Under the pieces are notes generated by a model. The model saw only the letters and a list, made by a program, of their open reading frames with translations. It was not told where the DNA came from and ran no database searches. 64,000 nucleotides of DNA from a bacterium (GTDB lineage: Bacteria; Sumerlaeota; Sumerlaeia; SLMS01; JAHLLQ01). The stretch lies in contig JAHLLQ010000001.1 in the NCBI GenBank assembly GCA_020444065.1, positions 868,001 to 932,000 of the forward strand, given 5' to 3'. A program made the translations under genes and the position numbers. Of this stretch, positions 41,429 through 53,848 are shown piece after piece (within the stretch, counting starts at the first letter, position 1; each line of letters opens with the position of its first letter).

Positions 41429-41887
41429 TCAGTAGTTTCTCAGAATATGATCGTCGGCCGTGTCGGCCGTCGGTCCGCCGCCGATGGAGCAGGTCGGGAG
41501 TTGCTCCAGCGATCCGAGCCGATACTGGCCGCCTGAGGGGCATGACGGCATCCGCCCTCCAAGTTCTTTTCGCACCGCATCGATCGACACCTCGCCCGTG
41601 GCGAACATCCCTTGGGAAGCCAGAGCCCGCTTTGCCGATTCGATCCGGCGCAGGTTCGCCCGGCAGGCCTTTGCCTGCTGGACGGCGGAGCCGCTGGGGC
41701 CACTCGGCGTATCCAGGGACGCGCCGACCTGGTACTGGAGGTTGGCCGCCCCGGCGCGGATATTGGACTCCAGATTGCGCAGATCTTGCTCGCTGGCGCC
41801 CTGCAGGTAGAAAAAGTAGACGAACGCCCCAACTGAGGCCAGGACGACAAGGATGATCAGGCGCTTGACGATTTTCTTCTTTCGCAT
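41429..41887 (-). CDS. Pilin-like secreted protein with CPxGGxY motif
   Basis: 152 residues with one N-terminal membrane helix (about 8-28, KRLIILVVLASVGAFVYFFY). The C-terminal half has two motifs: CRANLRRIESAKRALASQG, then PSCPSGGQYRLGSLEQLPTC and SIGG. A Cys-x-x-NL-x-x-I-x-x-AK helix followed by CPxGGxY and a second Cys is a pattern I know from type II secretion/pilin-like proteins of Lentisphaerae and Verrucomicrobia. The prepilin-peptidase site is not evident. Divergent from the STAS operon by 126 bases. Confidence 0.6.
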   Translation of the reverse strand: MRKKKIVKRLIILVVLASVGAFVYFFYLQGASEQDLRNLESNIRAGAANLQYQVGASLDTPSGPSGSAVQQAKACRANLRRIESAKRALASQGMFATGEVSIDAVRKELGGRMPSCPSGGQYRLGSLEQLPTCSIGGGPTADTADDHILRNY

Positions 41888-42013
41888 GATGCTGATAGGT
41901 TGGCCGGAGGCAGTTGGCTTGTCAAAGCGAAGTCGTTGGGTGGGCTTCTGTTTTTCCTTGATGCTGTCATGCCCCCGCCATAGGAGTCGCCTGTTGAAAT
42001 CGGAGGCCCCGTC

Positions 42014-42331
42014 GTGGAAGACTTGATCGATGTTCGTGAACCGCTGGAGTCGTTTCTGGCGGAATTGATGTTTCAGGTGGGAACCTGGAAGGAATCCCAA
42101 CGCCGCCAGGTGCTGCTCGACTTCCGGCGTGTGGATTTCATCGACTCCATGGCCATCGGCCATCTGGTGCGGCTATACCTGGAATGCAAACGCCAAGGAA
42201 TTCAACTCCGAACGGTCAACGTGGCATCAATCCCCCGCCGCTCGCTGGTGCATGCCGGCGTGACGGAATTGCTCGGCCTGGGGCACCAGACGCCCCCCGA
42301 TATCGACGACTCGACGGAGACGGCATGGTGA
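42014..42331 (+). CDS. STAS-domain protein (anti-sigma-factor-antagonist-like)
   Basis: 105 residues, a single STAS domain: VLLDFRRVDFIDSMAIGHLV, LYLECKRQGIQLRTVNVAS, then VHAGVTELLGL. The Ser in FIDSMA occupies the position that is phosphorylated in SpoIIAA/RsbV proteins. It starts at a GTG with GGAGG seven bases upstream. Its stop overlaps the start of the beta-helix gene by seven bases. First gene of an eight-gene run; no anti-sigma factor kinase or sigma factor is nearby, so a regulatory role for the operon is a guess. Confidence 0.85.
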   Translation: MEDLIDVREPLESFLAELMFQVGTWKESQRRQVLLDFRRVDFIDSMAIGHLVRLYLECKRQGIQLRTVNVASIPRRSLVHAGVTELLGLGHQTPPDIDDSTETAW

Positions 42332-45300
42332 TGCGGTCGGCGCGTCGGCTGTCGATACTACTTCTCCCCCTTCTTCTCAGCACTGCCGGGGCCTCTGCAA
42401 AAGACTTGCAGGCCTCCCCCGAAACCCTCCCAGACCTTCTGGCTCAGATTCAGTCCGGCGACAACGTCCTGCTCGCCCCGGGCGAATACACGCCTCCGAC
42501 AGGGCAACTCCCGGCCGCCAGGTACAAGTCCACAGGTGGCGAGACGACCTGGCAGGTGCCTCCCGCCGGGTGGAAGATCTCGGGAGATGCGCAGTTCATC
42601 GGAATCGTCTTCTGGAGCAGCGAAGAAGATCGACAGGCTTCGGCGTTCCAGTTTGCTGCCGGCAGTGAGGCCGAATTTGACGGCTGCCGCTTCGCCGGCT
42701 TGGCGGGATCACCAGCAATCGCTGCCAAAGATTCGATCGTTCGCCTGGAGGGATGCACGTTCTTCCACACTCCGCAGGGAGTGACCGTGAGTGGAACGGA
42801 CGGCGCAGAACTCCTCGTTACCGATTCCGAGTTCATCGCCCTGCCGCAGGATGGAGTTTCGTTCCTGCACCTGAATGGCAACACGATTGGGCGCATCGAA
42901 GCACAATTCGTCGGCGGCGGAAGCGCCATCACGGCCGACGATCTGACGGCACCGCTAGCGATTGAAGATTGCTTCATCACCGATTCATTCGAATCCGCTC
43001 TGTCTGTCCAATCAGATTACGCTCCGGTGGAGTTGCATCGTACGGTAATCGGCGGATCGTTCCGCGCAAGTGCAGTTCAACTGGTCGGACAATCAACGAT
43101 CAAGATCGCAGATGTTTCCGCTGACGATATCTTCCTCCCTGAGGGTGAGAGTGCATTCGTCGAGACGGTGGACTTCGGTACATTAAATGCAAATCGTATC
43201 CAGATTTCAGGCCGCGGAAACGGCGCGGGTATGCGTCTGCTTGGTGACGATTCGGTGGTAAAACTCGCAAATGCCTCCATCGAGAAGTGGAATGTAGGAG
43301 TGGAACTTCGGGGGCCTTCGCTGGCGTCGTCCAATCTCCATATCGAGCAGTGCGACACAGGCCTGCTCGCCGAAGAATCGAAGGTGATTCTGAACGGTGG
43401 CAGCATTTCCGATAACCGCACCGGCGTTTCCGTGACAGACGGCGCCACTGCGAGAGTCAGCGCCACAGTTGCTTCAAATCGTGAAGTCGGCATCAGTGTT
43501 GGAAGCAGGGCCGAATTGGTTCTGCGCACCAGCAAGGTGCTGGATAATGCGCTCGGCATCCTGATCGCCAAGGAAGCGGATGGCGTCGACCTGGGAACAC
43601 AGGTGGAGAACGGGGCGAACGTGCTGCGCGTTCCGGCGCCGACGGCGTTCGCCATTCGCAACGAGGGTTCGAACTCCGTTACGGCGTTTGGGAATCGCTG
43701 GTTCCAGAATCGACTCGAGTATCTCGGACATGTTGCCATCGATGATCTGATCGATGACGGGGACGTGGACAATCCGATCGGAGAAGCGGGCAACGGCGAG
43801 GTTTATTTTGAGATTCGCAGAGACTTCAAAGGCTCAACGATTCATTGGGACTCAACGGCCGATCGCCGGACGTTGGGGTACGGAAGTTCCGTGTATCGTT
43901 CGCGCGAAGAAGTTGAAGCCCGCGCCGCCCGCGTTCGCACGGTCCTGCTCGGCCCTGGTGAGTATCCGCCGCTGGAGCGCATGCCGTCGAGGCTGACGAT
44001 TCGGGGCAAAGGCGCGGATCAGACCCGCCTCGTAGCCCGTGAAGGCGCAGACGCCACAATCGATTCCAACGCGGCACAACTCTCATTGGAAGGCGTCGCC
44101 ATTTCCTTCGCACCTGACGGGCCGGAGACGGCGATCAGTTGGCGTGGAGGCGAACTGAAGTTGCAGGATGTGGACATCGATGGCTTCCCCGCGGCCGGCG
44201 TTGTTGCGGCTCCGGGGAGAGGCTCGATCGAGATGCGCAATGTGCGAATGCGCCTGCTTGACCTGAATGCCCAACCGCTTGTCGCGAAGAATCGTGCGAT
44301 GTTCCTGCATAACGTATCCATTGGCTCGCAGACCAGCCAGACTGCAATCGAGTGGAGTGGCGATGAGGGCATTGCGCTTTCGGCAGAGGGGCTCTCCATC
44401 GAGACCGGCAGTACCGATGGCGCCGCTTTGCATATCGTCGGCAGTGCCACATTGCGGGACACCACGGTGCATCAACTCGCCGGCACTGGCCTGCTCGTGG
44501 AGTCGCCCTCCCCAGCCACAAACTTCGACGCAGCGGGGTTAGAGATTCATGGCTTCTCTGAGGCTGGAGTCCGTATTGCTGGGACCTTCGAGAGCGCAGC
44601 TCTCTCCAATGTCGAACTTCGGCCGAAGCTCAATCCTTCGATTCATGCCGAGGGAATCGATTTCAGTTCCACTGCCTTGGGTGCGATCGAAATCAGCGAT
44701 CTGTCAGCCGAGAACGTCCGCCCCGGGCTGGCAGTTCGAGGAACGTGGACGAGCGGTTCCGCGAAGGAGATTCGCCTGCGCCTCGGCAGCGCATACAATG
44801 CCATCGACCGTCAGGAAGATGGCATTCTGTTCGATTCCCGTGGCCATTCGCCGGAGACATTCTTAGTCACAGCGGCGAACATCGAAGGCTACGACTCGGG
44901 GATTCACCTGGCGCCGGACCACGACAATCCGACGTCGGTGACGCTGGGGAATTTCCTCGGCACGGGCGCGAGTCGCTTCCGGCAGAACAGCGTTGGGATC
45001 CGCCTCTCCTCCGCCAGCGGTGCGTTGGTCGTGAAGGAAGATCGTAATCGCGCGCTGATCTCCGGCAGCGGCGTGGGCGTTCTGGTCGAGGCGGGAAATC
45101 TGAAACTTGAAAACGAGCGTATCCTCCAAAACACGGCCGGCATCATCGTACGCGGAGGCACGGCCGATCTCGGTGGCGGTCCGTTTCAGAGCCGTGGTGC
45201 GAATCTTCTGTGGCCGCAGTCCGGTAGTTACGGGATCATCAACGAGACGCCGCAGACTGTCATGGCGCGCGGCAACTACTGGGGAGAGGCCGAGGAACTG

Positions 45301-45381
45301 ATGCCGACCGAGGCGCGTCCGATCCGCGACAGCCTGCAAGATCCGAGCGCCGGCCCGGTGATCACGTCAGACAGGCCATGA
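42325..45381 (+). CDS. Secreted right-handed beta-helix protein, two tandem modules
   Basis: 1,018 residues. Signal peptide at 1-26 (LSILLLPLLLSTAGASA-KD). The rest is parallel beta-helix repeat sequence of short strands with Asn/Gly turns. Two modules are apparent: about 35-460 and 535-990. Both begin with a TVLL-like strand plus PGEY (NVLLAPGEYTPP near 48, TVLLGPGEYPPL near 538). Both end with a GAN motif, a hydrophobic rung and a GN-x-W turn (GANVLRVPAP ... FGNRW, and GANLLWPQSG ... RGNYW). No catalytic residues of pectate lyases are recognised. Overlaps STAS at the start and the next membrane gene by four bases at the end. Confidence 0.85.
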   Translation: MVMRSARRLSILLLPLLLSTAGASAKDLQASPETLPDLLAQIQSGDNVLLAPGEYTPPTGQLPAARYKSTGGETTWQVPPAGWKISGDAQFIGIVFWSSEEDRQASAFQFAAGSEAEFDGCRFAGLAGSPAIAAKDSIVRLEGCTFFHTPQGVTVSGTDGAELLVTDSEFIALPQDGVSFLHLNGNTIGRIEAQFVGGGSAITADDLTAPLAIEDCFITDSFESALSVQSDYAPVELHRTVIGGSFRASAVQLVGQSTIKIADVSADDIFLPEGESAFVETVDFGTLNANRIQISGRGNGAGMRLLGDDSVVKLANASIEKWNVGVELRGPSLASSNLHIEQCDTGLLAEESKVILNGGSISDNRTGVSVTDGATARVSATVASNREVGISVGSRAELVLRTSKVLDNALGILIAKEADGVDLGTQVENGANVLRVPAPTAFAIRNEGSNSVTAFGNRWFQNRLEYLGHVAIDDLIDDGDVDNPIGEAGNGEVYFEIRRDFKGSTIHWDSTADRRTLGYGSSVYRSREEVEARAARVRTVLLGPGEYPPLERMPSRLTIRGKGADQTRLVAREGADATIDSNAAQLSLEGVAISFAPDGPETAISWRGGELKLQDVDIDGFPAAGVVAAPGRGSIEMRNVRMRLLDLNAQPLVAKNRAMFLHNVSIGSQTSQTAIEWSGDEGIALSAEGLSIETGSTDGAALHIVGSATLRDTTVHQLAGTGLLVESPSPATNFDAAGLEIHGFSEAGVRIAGTFESAALSNVELRPKLNPSIHAEGIDFSSTALGAIEISDLSAENVRPGLAVRGTWTSGSAKEIRLRLGSAYNAIDRQEDGILFDSRGHSPETFLVTAANIEGYDSGIHLAPDHDNPTSVTLGNFLGTGASRFRQNSVGIRLSSASGALVVKEDRNRALISGSGVGVLVEAGNLKLENERILQNTAGIIVRGGTADLGGGPFQSRGANLLWPQSGSYGIINETPQTVMARGNYWGEAEELMPTEARPIRDSLQDPSAGPVITSDRP

Positions 45382-46349
45382 GTCCCCTCCCGAAGCACCT
45401 CCGCTGGGGCAGCACTTACGTTTCAAAGCCACTCCGGTTTTCGTTTCTCTGGCCCGATCAGCCGGAGCAATCGGCCCTGGTGCAGGAGTCCATTCGTGCA
45501 TCTCGCTGGCATGGAGATCTGCTCCGCATCGCACCCTGGGTGATCATCACCATGGGAGACCTCTACGTGGCATATCGCGCCGGCATGGCATTGCGGCCGA
45601 ACCTGTATTTCGCTCTTCTCGCTGCTCAGGTTTTGATCTTTCCGGGATTGATGGGTCTGCTCGCGGCCGCCGCCACCGACAGCCAGTTCGAGACCTTTCG
45701 CCGCCGTATCGGTATCGACAACATGGCGCTGACAACAATGAAGCCCGACGAGTACGCTCACGGGATCTTGTTCCGCGCAAGTTCGCTGCATTCGCTCGGG
45801 AACTTCGTCGCAACCATCGCCTGGATGATCGGCGGCGCGATGATCTGCATCCTTCTCGCGATCGGGTTTCCAAACAGCCTGATCGGGATGCGGTTAACGA
45901 TCTTCTCATTCTGCTGCATCATCGGTGGATTGTTGCGATTCTTTCTTCTTCAGGCCTCCATCGCGGGCGGCGCTGCCGCGGGGATGCGTGCGTCTCTGAT
46001 GATTCGCAGGCCACAACGAACACTACGGTTGATCACGGATTGGCTTCTCACATGGGCATTTGTGCCGGCACTGCTCCTGATATCGCTTTCAACGCTTTAT
46101 CTGATATTCTTCTTCTTGCTCCCGATCTTGATTGTGCCTCCTACGGCAGTGGCGATCGTGATACTAATACTGCTGCCACGCATGATTGTGAATCATGCGG
46201 TGGAGGTCGGAATGTGGACGCTGAGGGAGTCCGACAAATGGTGGATCCGCAACCCTGAAGATCCGGATTGGGTTCCGTATCGACCTCCTCGCTGGTGGGA
46301 GCCCTTCACACTGCTCGTATCGGGTCTTCTGCACATTCGCCGGCGGTAG
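45378..46349 (+). CDS. ABC-2-permease-like membrane protein, unit 1
   Basis: 323 residues with about six membrane helices. N-terminal RWGSTYVSKPLRFSFLW leads to a helix pair; a loop near residue 105 reads RRRIGIDNMALTTMKPDEYAH, in the position where ABC-2 exporters have their LLLTPLS-x-x-EI coupling segment. A distinctive C-terminus WWIRNPEDPDWVPYRPPRWW replaces the WWGEGADV motif of its later paralogues. Coupled to the beta-helix gene by an ATGA overlap. No ATPase is nearby. Confidence 0.7.
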   Translation: MSPLPKHLRWGSTYVSKPLRFSFLWPDQPEQSALVQESIRASRWHGDLLRIAPWVIITMGDLYVAYRAGMALRPNLYFALLAAQVLIFPGLMGLLAAAATDSQFETFRRRIGIDNMALTTMKPDEYAHGILFRASSLHSLGNFVATIAWMIGGAMICILLAIGFPNSLIGMRLTIFSFCCIIGGLLRFFLLQASIAGGAAAGMRASLMIRRPQRTLRLITDWLLTWAFVPALLLISLSTLYLIFFFLLPILIVPPTAVAIVILILLPRMIVNHAVEVGMWTLRESDKWWIRNPEDPDWVPYRPPRWWEPFTLLVSGLLHIRRR

Positions 46350-46377
46350 CAATCTCACACGAACGGGGGAAGTAATC

Positions 46378-47010
46378 ATGGCAGGAAAGCTCTGTCCGAA
46401 GATCATCCTCGAAGGCACACGCCTGACATTCAAGACCGAAATCGCGTTCACGCTGAACGAGCATCCGCGAATCGTCGGTCCTCGCAAATACCGCTATCAC
46501 TCGCCTGTCATCAGTGGCGAGTGGTGCGCGTTTACCAACTTCCCGTGGGGGCGGGGGTTGATCAATTTCAATCCGGAAGAGGAAGAGCGCGCGATGGAGA
46601 CATACCGCACGTGGATGCGGTTGTTTGAACTCCAGTGCTACTACTCCTGGATCGTCGATCGCTTCCATCTGTCCACGCGGATGTTCCAGTTCAAGACGCG
46701 CGGGAAAGACTACGACTTCGGCTGGCTCGAAGACAGGCTCGCGGCTCTCGATTTCCGATTGGTATATTGCACGCGCACGCCTGAGTCCTTCGCGGCGGCA
46801 CGTGAGGAGCGCCTGAAGGTCAGCGGAAACCCTTCGCAGTACGACGACCTCGACCTTTTCGTTGAGGAGCAGGAGTTGATGCGCAAGATGGTTTCGGAGT
46901 CTAAGCTCCGCACGTTCGTCGTCGACATGTCCGACAACGATGTGCCCCGTGCATGCGACAAGATCGCCGACTGGATGGAAGAAACGGGCGGGTTGTACGC
47001 CGAATACTGA
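46378..47010 (+). CDS. Thymidylate-kinase-like P-loop protein with degenerate P-loop
   Basis: 210 residues. The nucleoside/thymidylate-kinase outline is visible: strand-P-loop-helix IILEGTRLTFKTEIAFTL at 9-26, then DRFHLSTRMFQ at 94-104 (the family DR-x2-S), and a lid/strand part FRLVYCTRTPESF. In the P-loop, Lys19 and Thr20 remain, but the two glycines before Lys (family GxxGxGK[ST]) are Leu and Phe. It may bind nucleotide weakly or not at all. Function unknown. It sits 28 bases after unit 1, with GGGGGAAG upstream. Confidence 0.62.
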   Translation: MAGKLCPKIILEGTRLTFKTEIAFTLNEHPRIVGPRKYRYHSPVISGEWCAFTNFPWGRGLINFNPEEEERAMETYRTWMRLFELQCYYSWIVDRFHLSTRMFQFKTRGKDYDFGWLEDRLAALDFRLVYCTRTPESFAAAREERLKVSGNPSQYDDLDLFVEEQELMRKMVSESKLRTFVVDMSDNDVPRACDKIADWMEETGGLYAEY

Positions 47011-47020
47011 GAGGGATGGG

Positions 47021-48988
47021 ATGCGGACCGACAGCGACAGCCGAGAGTACCGCATCCCGCCCGATATTCGCTTTGGCCTGTGGCTGCTCTCGCTCCGCCG
47101 GAAGGGTTGGAGTGATGAATTCGCCGCGATCCAAGAGAATCCGCTCGTCATTCATAACTATGGGCCGCGCCATGATCGCATTGCGGATCATGGAGCGGCG
47201 TGGCTGCCATGGATTGCCTTTCTGGTTGCGGAAGTCATTCTTTTTACGTTGTTGGCCAGGCTTGGTATCTTCAGCGAGTGTATGCGATTCGTCTTGGCCG
47301 ACGCGGTCTTGGCGCCGTTTGGTGCTGCCGTTCTGATGCAGATCATGGTTATGCGACAGTGGTTCCGACTGCGCTGGTCGGTGCCCGTCGATGAGATCGC
47401 CGTCACACGCATGACTCCGCGCGAAATGGTCCTCGGCATGATCGCCCGCCCGATGGCGCTGCAATTCGTGACCTATCTCCTCTACTCGCTTGGGCTATGC
47501 GGAGCGCTCGTATTCTATCTACTCCATTCCGGAGGGAGATCGGAGTTCATACTTGCTCTCCTGACAATCCCCCTGACTCTCTTCCTCAAGATTCCGATCG
47601 GTTTCTCCATGATGTTCGCCGGGGCAACGTACGCCATCCGTGCGCGACTGCTCACGCGCGGTTACTGGTGGGCGCGCATTCGGATGATGGCAGATATGGG
47701 GAGATGGGCGATTCTCCCCATTGCGCTCTCATCCCTTGTCGGGGTCTTTGATGCCATTTTCCTGGCGTATGTGTTCGCCTTCGGCATCGTCGTCGTGACA
47801 GCCATTCGGCTCCTCATTGCCGGGTCAACTGCATGTCGAAATCGAGCACTCGCCACGTTCAGACAGACTGTCCATCATTCTTCGAACTGGTGGTTCCTGG
47901 CTGGCATGGAGATGGAACCGGAAGCAAACCGCGCGCGGCTGTGGGATTGGATGCGGGGGATTGAATTCGCGCATCCCCGCACAGTGGAGCCCTATGGCTG
48001 GGACGAGGATGGGCTGACGAGCCGACGCCGAGCCACGGCATTCGCGCATTGTTCCCTTCCGATTAGGGTGGGTTTGCGACTGCTGGATGGGGCGGGGCAA
48101 CTAATTGTCCAAAGAACAATGGAGCCTTCAGCGAGCAAGCTCCTGACAGATCGACGCCTCCTCTTCCAGATCAAGAGGCGCGCTCCCGGCTTCATCTGGC
48201 TTGTGTGGTTCGGCATCCTTATGGGGTCTCTTGCCTGCGCCTCGCTCGCTTCATCGTTCCATGGGGGCCTAGCCAAAGAACACTTTCTTCCGGCGAGTCT
48301 CCTGCTTGGCCTTCTGATCGTTGGCACCTCCGTCATTGCTGTTCAGGCTGCTGTATTCCGGATCGCGAACCGGAGTTCTGACTTGTGGCCGCCACACATC
48401 CCAATCGATTGCACACTCGATGCTCAAGACAATGTCGTAGCAACGATCCTGTTGCCCACGGCTATCAATCTGATCGCGGCAATCCTGCTCCCTGGGGCAA
48501 TCATTCTCATCATGATCCTCGGGTGGCTTACAATCTGGGGGAGCAGCGCCCTGCTCGGTAGCCTGATCGCCCTTGTTCTGATCGTACCGTTTACCCTGCA
48601 GGGTGGCATGATTGCATTCCGCGCACGGGTCCTGACGCGATCAACGTCTCTCGCCCTGCTGCGAATGGGTTGGGATTCCCTGCTACTAGTGATTCCGCCT
48701 CTTCCAGTATTTGGTATATTGTGCGTATTTGTCTACGCGCTTCAACTGCCAACGCCTCTGATTGGGCTCCTGTTCCCAATTCCACTCGTTCTTCTCATCG
48801 TTCTTTATCCCATCACATGTGGAGATTGGTTTCAGGACCTCATCGACCTCGCCCCATTCTGGTGGGAGAGAGACGCGGAGGAAGACTGGAGAGAAATAAC
48901 CGGTAAGAAATGGGTGAGTGATTGGACTGGGCCGCTGCGGGAGAAGATTCTACGCGAGAACGCCAGTTCCCAGATTGGGGAAACATGA
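47021..48988 (+). CDS. Fused double ABC-2-permease-like membrane protein, units 2 and 3
   Basis: 655 residues, twice the length of its neighbours. The N-terminal half runs to about 330 and the C-terminal half from about 345. Each half starts with an IR-(F/V)-GL motif (DIRFGLWLL, PIRVGLRLL), carries a helix pair, a coupling-like loop (first half: VPVDEIAVTRMTPREMVLGM) and further helices. The second half ends with LAPFWWERDAEEDWREITGK, matching the tail of units 4-6. GAGAGGG precedes ATG 47021. Its stop overlaps the next start by ATGA. Confidence 0.7.
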   Translation: MRTDSDSREYRIPPDIRFGLWLLSLRRKGWSDEFAAIQENPLVIHNYGPRHDRIADHGAAWLPWIAFLVAEVILFTLLARLGIFSECMRFVLADAVLAPFGAAVLMQIMVMRQWFRLRWSVPVDEIAVTRMTPREMVLGMIARPMALQFVTYLLYSLGLCGALVFYLLHSGGRSEFILALLTIPLTLFLKIPIGFSMMFAGATYAIRARLLTRGYWWARIRMMADMGRWAILPIALSSLVGVFDAIFLAYVFAFGIVVVTAIRLLIAGSTACRNRALATFRQTVHHSSNWWFLAGMEMEPEANRARLWDWMRGIEFAHPRTVEPYGWDEDGLTSRRRATAFAHCSLPIRVGLRLLDGAGQLIVQRTMEPSASKLLTDRRLLFQIKRRAPGFIWLVWFGILMGSLACASLASSFHGGLAKEHFLPASLLLGLLIVGTSVIAVQAAVFRIANRSSDLWPPHIPIDCTLDAQDNVVATILLPTAINLIAAILLPGAIILIMILGWLTIWGSSALLGSLIALVLIVPFTLQGGMIAFRARVLTRSTSLALLRMGWDSLLLVIPPLPVFGILCVFVYALQLPTPLIGLLFPIPLVLLIVLYPITCGDWFQDLIDLAPFWWERDAEEDWREITGKKWVSDWTGPLREKILRENASSQIGET

Positions 48989-50016
48989 ACATGCGGCGAG
49001 AATCCGAAATCCAATCAGGCAGTATCGATCACTGCCCCTTCATTGTGCGGTATGGCTTGAAGCACCTGAGCGGGGGAAACAAAGGCCTGATTCCGGGGAC
49101 GCTCAGTCCGTGGTGCAATCCTCTCTTCATTGATCCCGCGCTGTCTCGTGTGTTTGTACGAGTTGTGTACTATCGCCAACTCTGGTTTGCTTGTCTTCTG
49201 GTTCTGCTCATTGGAATTGCAGTTCTGGAGATCTGCGGTCTGCCCGGCGGGTTCAACTTCGTGGCGATCACGGCTACATCGGGGCTCTTCCTTGCGAACC
49301 TGCTCTTCGCGATTATCGTGCAACGCATTGAGTGTCGGCTTCTTGCAACGACACAACCGCTAACATCCCCTGCCGCCATTGCCCAGACCGGGATCGCCGC
49401 TAAGGATTACGTCGAGGCCCACGTCCTTGTTTCTGCGGCGGTCGCGCGTGTCCTGGTCCTCGCACTGGCAACACCGCTATTCGTCGCGATGCTCGGAAAA
49501 CTCCTGGTCGATTTCTTCCTCACCGGAACTTGGCGTGGCGGAATCTCTTCAGATCTCGTTTACTTCCTCTATGTTTTCCTCGCAGGTGTGATGGCCCTGA
49601 TTGGCCACACAACAATGATCGCCACTGCCACTGCAATGAAAGCGCGAGTTCTGACGGCAGATCGAGATCTGGCCGAGAAACGGATGACCGCCGACTATCT
49701 CAAAGGGCACTTGCTGTGGATTCCCGCGTTTCTCGCCTCCGCATTTGCTCTCTTGGCAAATGGAGAACTGCGATTCGCATTCTTATTCTTCGTGGCTTTC
49801 GCCTGCATCATGTTCAGTGTCTACGTCCAGGAGCGGCGGATTCTGCGGGCGATTCGCGAACTCGAAAGCCTCGCCCCTTTGTGGTGGGGCGAGGGGGCTG
49901 ACGTGAATATGGATGAGTTGACGAAGGGGAAGTGGCTCGGCGATTGGGCGCGGCCGCTGCGAGCCGAAGCGGCGCGGCTTGTCGAACGGCAGGGAGCCTG
50001 GGAGGGCGAATCATGA
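48985..50016 (+). CDS. ABC-2-permease-like membrane protein, unit 4
   Basis: 343 residues, about six membrane helices. N-terminus HCPFIVRYGLKHL, then NPLFIDPALSRVFVRVVYY, a helix pair, a coupling-like loop TSPAAIAQTGIAAKDYVEAH, and a C-terminal cytoplasmic tail ELESLAPLWWGEGADVNMDE followed by LTKGKWLGDWARPLR. The tail is the strongest shared signature of the group. Starts and ends in ATGA overlaps with its neighbours. Confidence 0.72.
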   Translation: MNMRRESEIQSGSIDHCPFIVRYGLKHLSGGNKGLIPGTLSPWCNPLFIDPALSRVFVRVVYYRQLWFACLLVLLIGIAVLEICGLPGGFNFVAITATSGLFLANLLFAIIVQRIECRLLATTQPLTSPAAIAQTGIAAKDYVEAHVLVSAAVARVLVLALATPLFVAMLGKLLVDFFLTGTWRGGISSDLVYFLYVFLAGVMALIGHTTMIATATAMKARVLTADRDLAEKRMTADYLKGHLLWIPAFLASAFALLANGELRFAFLFFVAFACIMFSVYVQERRILRAIRELESLAPLWWGEGADVNMDELTKGKWLGDWARPLRAEAARLVERQGAWEGES

Positions 50017-51035
50017 TCTTGCCCTCGGAGCTGAAAGAGCTGAAGGCAAAGCTCCGGCATTGGCCACTTCGGTATCGATGGGGCATATCCTTCATCATCC
50101 AGTTCGAGGGGATGCCCCTGCCGCTCGACAATGCGCTGCTGACGGAACCTGCTATCAGCAGGCAGTTGGCCTCCCGTAGGGAGTATCTCATTCTCACGAT
50201 TGTCTATTCACTCATGCTGTTGGCTTCGGCCCTGCCCATTCAGGCAGGGCTATTCCGCGGGGCCCGGGGAATTGACTCCGTCGTTCCAATGGCGATGGGT
50301 GTCTTGATCGTGATGCTGAATGCTCTGGTAGTAATATGGGTTCAGGGAAGAGCTCTTCGATCTCGCTCGGCATTCCTTTCTCGCGCAAGCCTGTCGGGGT
50401 CAGCGATTTCTGCGAGCGAGTTCGTGGTTGTACATGTCCTGATCCCTGCTTCGCTGAGCCTCTTTGTCGCCTTCTCACTCCAAGCTCTGTATTTGATCGG
50501 GTACGTCATTTCTGCGCCCTACGAAATCATCTCCGGAACTACATCTTCCGGCATGCTCAGTTCCGATGCCCTGAGCGCAAGTCTTGGACTACTGTGCGCT
50601 CCTGTTCTCCTTGCCGGTCACTTCTCTCTTGTCGCTGGCGCAATTGCCTTCCGAGCACACGCTTTGACGGATGATATCGAGTTGGCGAATCGCAGAGCTG
50701 TTGCGGACATGATGAGCATCTGCCTCCCTCTGGTCATCCTGGCCATGCTTGCTGTCGTTCTCGGACTCCTCTTTCAAAGCGACTTGCTGGATCTCTTTTT
50801 CATTGTCCCCCTCTGCACTACAGGGGTTCTCGTCTTTCTGCGTCTGCGACGCATGATAAAGGAGCTGTTTCGGGAACTCGATAACCTCGCCCCGTTGTGG
50901 TGGAGCGAAGGCGCAGACGTAAATCTGGATGACCTGACGAAGAGGAAATGGCTCGGCGATTGGACACGGCCGCTGCATGGTAAAATGCTGCGCCTGAATG
51001 CCGAAGCGCGAGTTGAAAGTGGGAAAGGTCTATGA
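50013..51035 (+). CDS. ABC-2-permease-like membrane protein, unit 5
   Basis: 340 residues, about six membrane helices. N-terminus HWPLRYRWGISFI, then ALLTEPAISRQLASRREYL, and a coupling-like loop LSGSAISASEFVVVHVL. The tail is ELDNLAPLWWSEGADVNLDD then LTKRKWLGDWTRPLH. Clearly paralogous to units 4 and 6. ATGA overlap at both ends. Confidence 0.72.
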   Translation: MILPSELKELKAKLRHWPLRYRWGISFIIQFEGMPLPLDNALLTEPAISRQLASRREYLILTIVYSLMLLASALPIQAGLFRGARGIDSVVPMAMGVLIVMLNALVVIWVQGRALRSRSAFLSRASLSGSAISASEFVVVHVLIPASLSLFVAFSLQALYLIGYVISAPYEIISGTTSSGMLSSDALSASLGLLCAPVLLAGHFSLVAGAIAFRAHALTDDIELANRRAVADMMSICLPLVILAMLAVVLGLLFQSDLLDLFFIVPLCTTGVLVFLRLRRMIKELFRELDNLAPLWWSEGADVNLDDLTKRKWLGDWTRPLHGKMLRLNAEARVESGKGL

Positions 51036-52030
51036 AACCAGAAGAGTACAACGAACTACGTCAGGGTCTCGCCCACTGGCCGTGGACATATCGGGTTGGT
51101 TTCAATTACGTGGCCATCGTGTTGGGGAATTTGATCTCGCTCAAGAACCCACTCTTGATGGATCGCTCCCTAAGCAAAGCACTCTTCAACCAGAAAACTT
51201 ACCGCATCCTCTCGACCTTCGGATTTCTCTGTGTGCTTCTCCCTCTTGCATTCATGGCTGTGGGTCTCAGCCCAAAGGGGATACTGAGTCTTCTGACAAT
51301 AGGGTTCTCCGGCGGCATCATTGCGGTCTTCATCAATAGCATTCTGGTTCAGCGGTGCTTAGGCAAGATCTTGCACGAGCGCGCCTCGCTGTTTGCTCCC
51401 GCCAATCTGTCTGCATCGTCGATTAGCCCGCGACAGTATCTGGAAGCACAAGTCACCGTGCCGACTGCCTTGACCGGGTTTGTGGCAAACGCCGTTTGGA
51501 TCGCGCTGATGCTGATTCCGATGGTGAATTGGATCATCAAGTACTTACTGCGCCTCCCCCCGACTGTCAGGACCATACCGAACTTCCCCCTTATCGTGTA
51601 TGCTTTCGGCATGTTCGTCGCCTTCATAAGCGGTTCTGTTGCGCTCATGTCATCCGCGTTGGCATTTCGGGCTCATGCCTTGACAAATGCCCCCGAGTTG
51701 GCTCATCGCCGCGCAGTTCGCGACTTCCTCCGATTGGCATGGCCGTTGGTGCTCATTGCGCTTGTGACGATTCCGTTCTCAATCGCAGTTCCCCATCCTG
51801 CCATCTTGTTTGCATTGACCATTGCTTTACTTGGCCTCCTGCTTCGTACGCTTTCCAAGTTCCGACCAGAAATGGAATACATGATCGGTGAGATTGAAAA
51901 CCTCGCACCCTTGTGGTGGGGCGAAGGGGCCGATGTGAATCTGGACGAACTGACGCAACACAGGTGGAACGAGGATTGGGTCTACGCACTTCGAGAAGAA
52001 GTGGAGCGGATTCAGGAAGACGTGGTCTAG
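51032..52030 (+). CDS. ABC-2-permease-like membrane protein, unit 6
   Basis: 332 residues, about six membrane helices. N-terminus HWPWTYRVGFNYV, then LKNPLLMDRSLSKALFNQKT and a loop LSASSISPRQYLEAQVTV in the coupling position. The tail is EIENLAPLWWGEGADVNLDE then LTQHRWNEDWVYALREE. Last gene of the run; its stop overlaps that of the convergent tyrA gene by four bases. Confidence 0.72.
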   Translation: MKPEEYNELRQGLAHWPWTYRVGFNYVAIVLGNLISLKNPLLMDRSLSKALFNQKTYRILSTFGFLCVLLPLAFMAVGLSPKGILSLLTIGFSGGIIAVFINSILVQRCLGKILHERASLFAPANLSASSISPRQYLEAQVTVPTALTGFVANAVWIALMLIPMVNWIIKYLLRLPPTVRTIPNFPLIVYAFGMFVAFISGSVALMSSALAFRAHALTNAPELAHRRAVRDFLRLAWPLVLIALVTIPFSIAVPHPAILFALTIALLGLLLRTLSKFRPEMEYMIGEIENLAPLWWGEGADVNLDELTQHRWNEDWVYALREEVERIQEDVV

Positions 52031-53038: not shown

Positions 53039-53848
53039 TCACGGTTCCCGAGGACCAAGGCCCTTGATCACGGTTCGGGCCATCAGAAGCGTAAGGATGA
53101 TCTTGAGTGCCGCGTAGGGCGGTCCAAACCACGGCGTTGCGTGGAGTTCCAGAAGAACGGCAAGGAAGTCGGGCCAAGAAATGAGATCGCTGAAGCTCGC
53201 GTTTGGCAGCGCTTTCAGGACCACAAAATAGGCGATCAGATCCAGGAACAGGTTGCTGGCGAAAGAGTCCCGGAGCGAATTGTGCCCCGCTCGGCCGTGG
53301 CGACGTTCCTGGATCCAGATTCCACCAATGACGCCAAAGAAGATCGCGGAAATGAAGTACAGCCAGGTGATGAGGAAGTGCAGGCGGGTCCAGGAGTCGT
53401 CCGTCAATGAGACTACGTCGCCTTCTTCGAAACGCAGCAGCCACCAGTTTTCCCAGGGTAGCATCGGGATGTAGAACAGCGCGATCAGTCCAAACAACAA
53501 ACCGCAGCGGGTCAAAACAAACGCCCAAAACAGATCTGCAGCCGAGGCCCCGGTCAGGTACATCTCCTCGAATCGAGTCGATCGACGCCAGCGCCTCCAC
53601 GCAAAGAAGATGAAGAAGGGTGGAGCGAAATAAACGATGGAATGGAAGAATGTGAACTGCAGATAGTACTGAGAGTACGCATCAAACCTCTCGGAGAAGC
53701 CGAGCAGCAGCAGCACGCTGAACCCGAGATGTCCGAAAGCCGCAAGTACCACGACCCAGAACATCGGCTGGCGCAGCAAGTCGTGCCACAGCAGGCGCGC
53801 TTCGCGTCGCAGGATCGGGTTCTTCGATGGTCGGAGCGGCTCGAGCAT
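53039..53848 (-). CDS. ABC-2-like membrane protein between aroF and tyrA
   Basis: 269 residues, about six membrane helices. The N-terminus NPILRREARLLWHDLLRQPM has the NP-(V/I)-L-x-RE pattern of ABC-2 exporter subunits, and FEEMYLTGASAADLFWAFVL stands at the coupling-loop position. It lacks the WWGEGADV tail of the 45-52 kb family and is not obviously their paralogue. It starts 20 bases after the DAHP synthase stop, so is probably cotranscribed. No ATPase nearby. Confidence 0.65.
   Translation of the reverse strand: MLEPLRPSKNPILRREARLLWHDLLRQPMFWVVVLAAFGHLGFSVLLLLGFSERFDAYSQYYLQFTFFHSIVYFAPPFFIFFAWRRWRRSTRFEEMYLTGASAADLFWAFVLTRCGLLFGLIALFYIPMLPWENWWLLRFEEGDVVSLTDDSWTRLHFLITWLYFISAIFFGVIGGIWIQERRHGRAGHNSLRDSFASNLFLDLIAYFVVLKALPNASFSDLISWPDFLAVLLELHATPWFGPPYAALKIILTLLMARTVIKGLGPREP

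Follow-up and report, generated by a model that had tools for sequence, protein, structure and literature searches.

Two described envelope systems are closest to the locus analyzed here. In NosDFY, the secreted beta-helix protein NosD sits on the ABC-2 permease NosY, and NosF is the ATPase. In MlaFEDB, the STAS protein MlaB binds the ATPase MlaF, which sets a precedent for a STAS protein acting as modulator (PMC7367683). The present cluster occupies positions 42014-52030 of the window, i.e. the 64,000 nucleotide stretch of DNA that was analyzed, and consists of eight genes packed into 10 kb, all in the same direction (Table 1). The genome that harbors it is 5.2 Mb in size and has Candidatus Sumerlaeota metagenome-assembled genomes as its nearest named relatives. 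As in NosDFY, a secreted beta-helix gene directly precedes permeases of NosY shape; the cluster differs in that it has six permease units where NosDFY has one, and neither NosF nor a NosZ or NosL context. A NosD-type beta-helix is present, whereas orthologues of NosY and NosF were not found by sequence. With MlaFEDB it shares a STAS protein encoded together with envelope permease-like proteins, but it has no MCE protein or MlaF, and its permeases are NosY-like and not MlaE-like in fold. None of the eight genes matched the MCE, MlaE or MlaF families in Pfam or NCBIfam.

Table 1. Genes of the cluster, with coordinates in the window; u1 to u6 denote the six 6-TM units.
Feature	Position	Strand	Evidence
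STAS-domain protein, 105 aa, short N-terminus	42014..42331	+	Pfam STAS 8.7e-12, over cut-off
Secreted protein, signal peptide and two tandem right-handed beta-helix lobes, ~1016 aa	42325..45381	+	Beta_helix 2.8e-16, NosD 8.4e-9
u1, 6-TM ABC-2/NosY-like membrane protein, family A	45378..46349	+	alignments, tree
P-loop kinase-like protein, 210 aa, atypical loop GTRLTFKT	46378..47010	+	orthologues; weak profile matches
Two-unit fusion: u2 (47021-47989, family A) and u3 (47990-48985, family B)	47021..48988	+	alignments, tree, u2 model
u4, family B, LAPLWW tail	48985..50016	+	alignment, tree
u5, family B, LAPLWW tail	50013..51035	+	alignment, tree
u6, family B, LAPLWW tail	51032..52030	+	alignment, tree, u6 model

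An earlier, sequence-only reading of this DNA had described the eight genes as one coupled run, and the overlaps at 42325-42331, 45378-45381, 48985-48988, 50013-50016 and 51032-51035 could be read directly. ATGA overlaps occur at four joins (45378, 48985, 50013 and 51032), and the non-overlapping joins leave gaps of 28 nt between u1 and the kinase-like gene and of 10 nt between the latter and the gene of the two-unit protein. The STAS gene starts with a GTG at 42014 that has GGAGG seven bases 5' of it, and the beta-helix gene starts either at ATG 42325, with a longer overlap with the STAS gene, or at ATG 42331, in a TGATG coupling. Judging from the preceding AGAGGG, the two-unit protein probably begins at ATG 47021, the listed ORF start at 46940 being too early. 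The 3' end of u6 overlaps the stop of the convergent tyrA gene by 4 bp. Divergent from the operon, 41429-42163 (-) encodes a small predicted membrane-anchored protein with a likely start MRKKK near 41889 and no family match. Between the tyrA-like and a DAHP-synthase-like gene, 53039-53848 (-) encodes a 269-aa membrane protein that begins NPILRREARLLW and has a RRSTRFEEMYLTGASAADLF stretch; no model of Pfam or NCBIfam matched it over cut-off, and it is possibly another ATPase-less ABC-2-like protein.

The STAS domain and the secreted beta-helix, both recognized in the sequence-only reading, were borne out by profile matches over cut-off. The DS-x-(A/G)-(I/L)-G loop of the STAS protein reads FIDSMAIG, with the Ser retained, and relatives of this protein in the other searched genomes are weak. 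For the beta-helix protein the NosD profile scored 35.6 bits against a cut-off of 23.6, and the generic Beta_helix model scored higher; the other beta-helix protein of this genome (L032, contig C10) is a weak paralogue. Orthologues with 30-32% identity were found in two genomes of the same family (G001 and G003), where they sit directly 3' of a different, phylum-wide gene, which here lies on another contig (C5). This gene encodes an uncharacterized 355-aa protein (L030:2916-3986, L031:3177-4235; here G000:C5:152718-153710) that occurs in 37 of the 46 genomes searched, nearly the whole phylum.

Since none of the beta-helix orthologues adjoins the 6-TM permease family, the NosD-NosY-like pairing is unique to this genome, and the beta-helix protein as phylum-wide partner of these permeases was ruled out by synteny.

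Homology among the six membrane units is above chance, as seen for u6/u5 (E 2e-46) and u5/u3 (E 4e-21); u1/u2 gave E 9e-7 in one single comparison, and u2 and u3, the two halves of 47021-48988, gave E 6e-4 pairwise and are linked also via the family tree and profiles. An alignment of all six units reproduced the motifs that had been pointed out, with an invariant R-x-G in every unit (RVG, RWG, RYG, RVG, RFG and RWG, hence R-(W/Y/V/F)-G) and LAPLWW or LAPFWW at the C-terminal end of four. In the tree, u1 and u2 cluster with solo genes of relatives and u3-u6 form a separate, fully supported clade, which fits duplication in place. On this sequence evidence, the six units arose by duplication, mostly in place.

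Apart from one further paralogue in the same genome (G000:C7:192887, flanked by mtnA and an FHA gene), a profile of the six units detected homologues as solo genes, one to three per genome, in most genomes of this order. Across 45 other genomes, about 39 of them Sumerlaeota, it gave no convincing match outside the order. A GTDB-wide scan with the 47021-48988 protein returned no relatives, and matches of a scan with the solo-family alignment were limited to Sumerlaeota. The solo homologues, e.g. L053:9746-10951, belong to the same family and carry the same motifs, with 20-28% identity to u1/u2, but are single genes outside any permease cluster. Their neighbors are unrelated genes, such as mtnA (which adjoins L053:9746-10951), glutamate dehydrogenase and ATP synthase genes. 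At L054:90-4010, an M1-peptidase/HEAT secreted protein precedes a 6-TM protein that has an ABC-2-like loop, and a second M1-peptidase-like gene adjoins the solo unit L054:9393-10721.

The description of these units as ABC-2-like held for the predicted fold and not for family models. Profile searches against the ABC-2 families had been proposed as a check; no ABC-2 model of Pfam or NCBIfam matched any unit or homologue, even at E 1-10. Pfam and NCBIfam profiles run on all eight genes, and PHROGs on five, returned nothing for the membrane units, and sequence searches of the PDB gave no match for the units (including to NosY), the beta-helix or the kinase-like protein. AlphaFold models were obtained for u6 (pLDDT 77) and u2 (pLDDT 80), which are 16% identical. 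Both show 6 TM with amphipathic helices at the N-terminus and a short helix that separates TM2 from TM3, as in ABC-2 type permeases (PF01061, PF12679 and PF12698), from which the units differ by the missing family model match, the missing adjoining ATPase and a conserved (E)WW C-terminal tail. When the models were compared with the PDB by Foldseek, NosY was the top high-probability neighbor of both (probability 0.97-0.98, TM 0.41-0.50), with best E-values of 0.21 and 0.44, which are not significant. All matches above a probability of about 0.5 were ABC-2 permeases, with CcmB and PmtD following NosY for u2.

At the coupling-helix-like stretch between TM2 and TM3, hhalign matched the solo-type family with the ABC-2 permeases of the phylum. 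This match scored 26.1 over 46 aligned columns, at the coupling-helix stretch only, and placed SVPVDEIAVTRMTPREMVLGMIA opposite the canonical GTLExLLxTPxS-x-x-E-I-x-x-GK; controls reached a mean of 14.5 and a maximum of 20.1 (60 column shuffles), 21.6 (reversed alignment) and 18.9 (unrelated BPD permease set). Within the 13-member family, 20 of the 23 columns conserved at ≥80% fall in cytoplasmic segments, among them the coupling loop, and periplasmic loops contain none, a pattern in line with binding of a cytoplasmic partner. With no family-model match on the one side and the fold and coupling-helix match on the other, membership of ABC-2 by sequence is not supported whereas an ABC-2-like shape is, and the predicted models indicate that the six units probably have the ABC-2 fold.

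As the sequence-only reading had stated, the cluster encodes no ABC ATPase, and annotation of the window from 30 to 61 kb brought up none. Neither was an ABC ATPase found adjoining any of the solo homologues examined. Genome-wide, about 55 ABC ATPase domains (PF00005) pass the family cut-off, and all of them lie outside the window. Neighbors were checked region by region, using a codon-usage gene finder, for the 50 strongest of these matches, several of which have no adjoining membrane gene. Among these best 50, at least two ATPases of the DrrA/GldA type, the class serving ABC-2 permeases, have no adjoining permease (G000:C2:427385-428314 and G000:C1:1227573-1228529) and are candidates for a motor acting in trans.

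The kinase-like protein has a P-loop-type motif, and this call stays at the level of the motif, as matches to Thymidylate_kin / Kinase-PPPase were sub-threshold (E 0.05-0.15). Its loop GTRLT(F/H)KT is invariant among orthologues and lacks the second Gly of the canonical GxxxxGK(S/T). Five other Sumerlaeota genomes, none of which has the cluster, carry orthologues with 71-73% identity in unrelated contexts; sequences so alike, yet patchily distributed across Sumerlaeota families, suggest transfer or frequent loss. No match was found in viral contigs, and the plasmid comparison gave one partial 33% match, to PPDK regulatory protein. A role as substitute for the ATPase was rejected because of the atypical P-loop and because no orthologue lies near these permeases. 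The operon probably carries the gene as a passenger.

A dedicated envelope system conserved as an eight-gene unit, as had been envisaged, was not recovered: the eight genes were nowhere found together in the survey of 45 other genomes, in which the species is the sole member of its genus, so that younger conservation lies outside its reach. The beta-helix and kinase-like orthologues lie elsewhere, on their own, and only the 6-TM family is conserved across the order, as solo genes. The absence of the set in relatives and the scattered orthologues point to an assembly specific to this lineage, in which permease genes were duplicated in place, and not to a conserved system.

Our tentative interpretation, narrowly ahead of its closest rival, is that the operon encodes a lineage-specific NosDFY-like envelope complex, with a beta-helix on ABC-2-type permeases and an ATPase in trans. 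Several diverged NosY-like 6-TM subunits would form hetero-oligomers in the inner membrane, the beta-helix protein with its two lobes would dock on the outer side of these in the manner of NosD on NosY, the STAS protein would modulate the cytoplasmic side as MlaB does on MlaF, and an ABC-2-class ATPase encoded elsewhere would power the complex. Subunit co-assembly, beta-helix binding, trans action of the ATPase and any substrate are inferences; the interpretation as a whole draws on the u6 and u2 models with their fold neighbors NosY, CcmB and PmtD, the coupling-helix match above controls, the conserved cytoplasmic columns, the two orphan ATPases, the beta-helix score over the NosD cut-off and the MlaB-MlaF precedent. 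This interpretation is weakened by the lack of an ABC-2 model match, by the Foldseek values (E 0.21-0.44, TM ~0.4-0.5) and by solo relatives that are never beside an ATPase and beta-helix orthologues that are never beside these permeases. The first two points would also suit another 6-TM fold with ABC-2 likeness only at low resolution, which we consider very improbable, given that the two models agree, that NosY and other ABC-2 permeases are their only high-probability neighbors and that the profile match aligns the coupling helix in the correct register.

A close rival, almost as likely as the NosDFY-like complex, is that the units derive from ABC-2 permeases that have ceased to pump, and serve without an ATPase as anchors in the membrane or as platforms on which secreted proteins assemble. 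The absence of an ABC ATPase beside any solo member examined in the order, the unrelated neighbors of these members, the loss of every recognizable Pfam ABC-2 sequence signature from the family, and the family gene next to M1-peptidase-like secreted proteins in one relative are in line with such a scaffold; the best conserved columns, however, are cytoplasmic and include the coupling-helix stretch where an ATPase would dock, and the genome has spare ABC-2-class ATPases. Not far behind, though unlikely in itself, is a lineage-specific assortment in which genes of separate histories were joined in one transcription unit with a tandem-duplicated solo membrane gene, and the STAS, beta-helix and kinase-like proteins act independently. 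The orthologues of the latter two in unrelated contexts, and the phylum-wide gene 5' of the beta-helix gene in G001/G003 that is on C5 here, argue for this assortment; the overlapping starts, the retention and divergence of six permease units, the NosD-NosY-like pairing and a survey with one species of the genus, in which recent conservation is not visible, argue against it.

The 6-TM family, which matched none of the Pfam and NCBIfam models applied, looks like a distant branch of the ABC-2 permeases that lacks ATPases and is restricted to a single candidate phylum. That this Sumerlaeota-specific branch mixes ATPase-less permease subunits with trans motors and beta-helix partners as a multi-subunit envelope machine is a further and rather unlikely proposition. 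If no ATPase is borrowed, the ABC-2 fold would have been reused as a scaffold. If the subunits do rely on ATPases from other loci, they would represent a modular arrangement that is uncommon among ABC exporters, and orphan ABC-2-class ATPases would gain a function.
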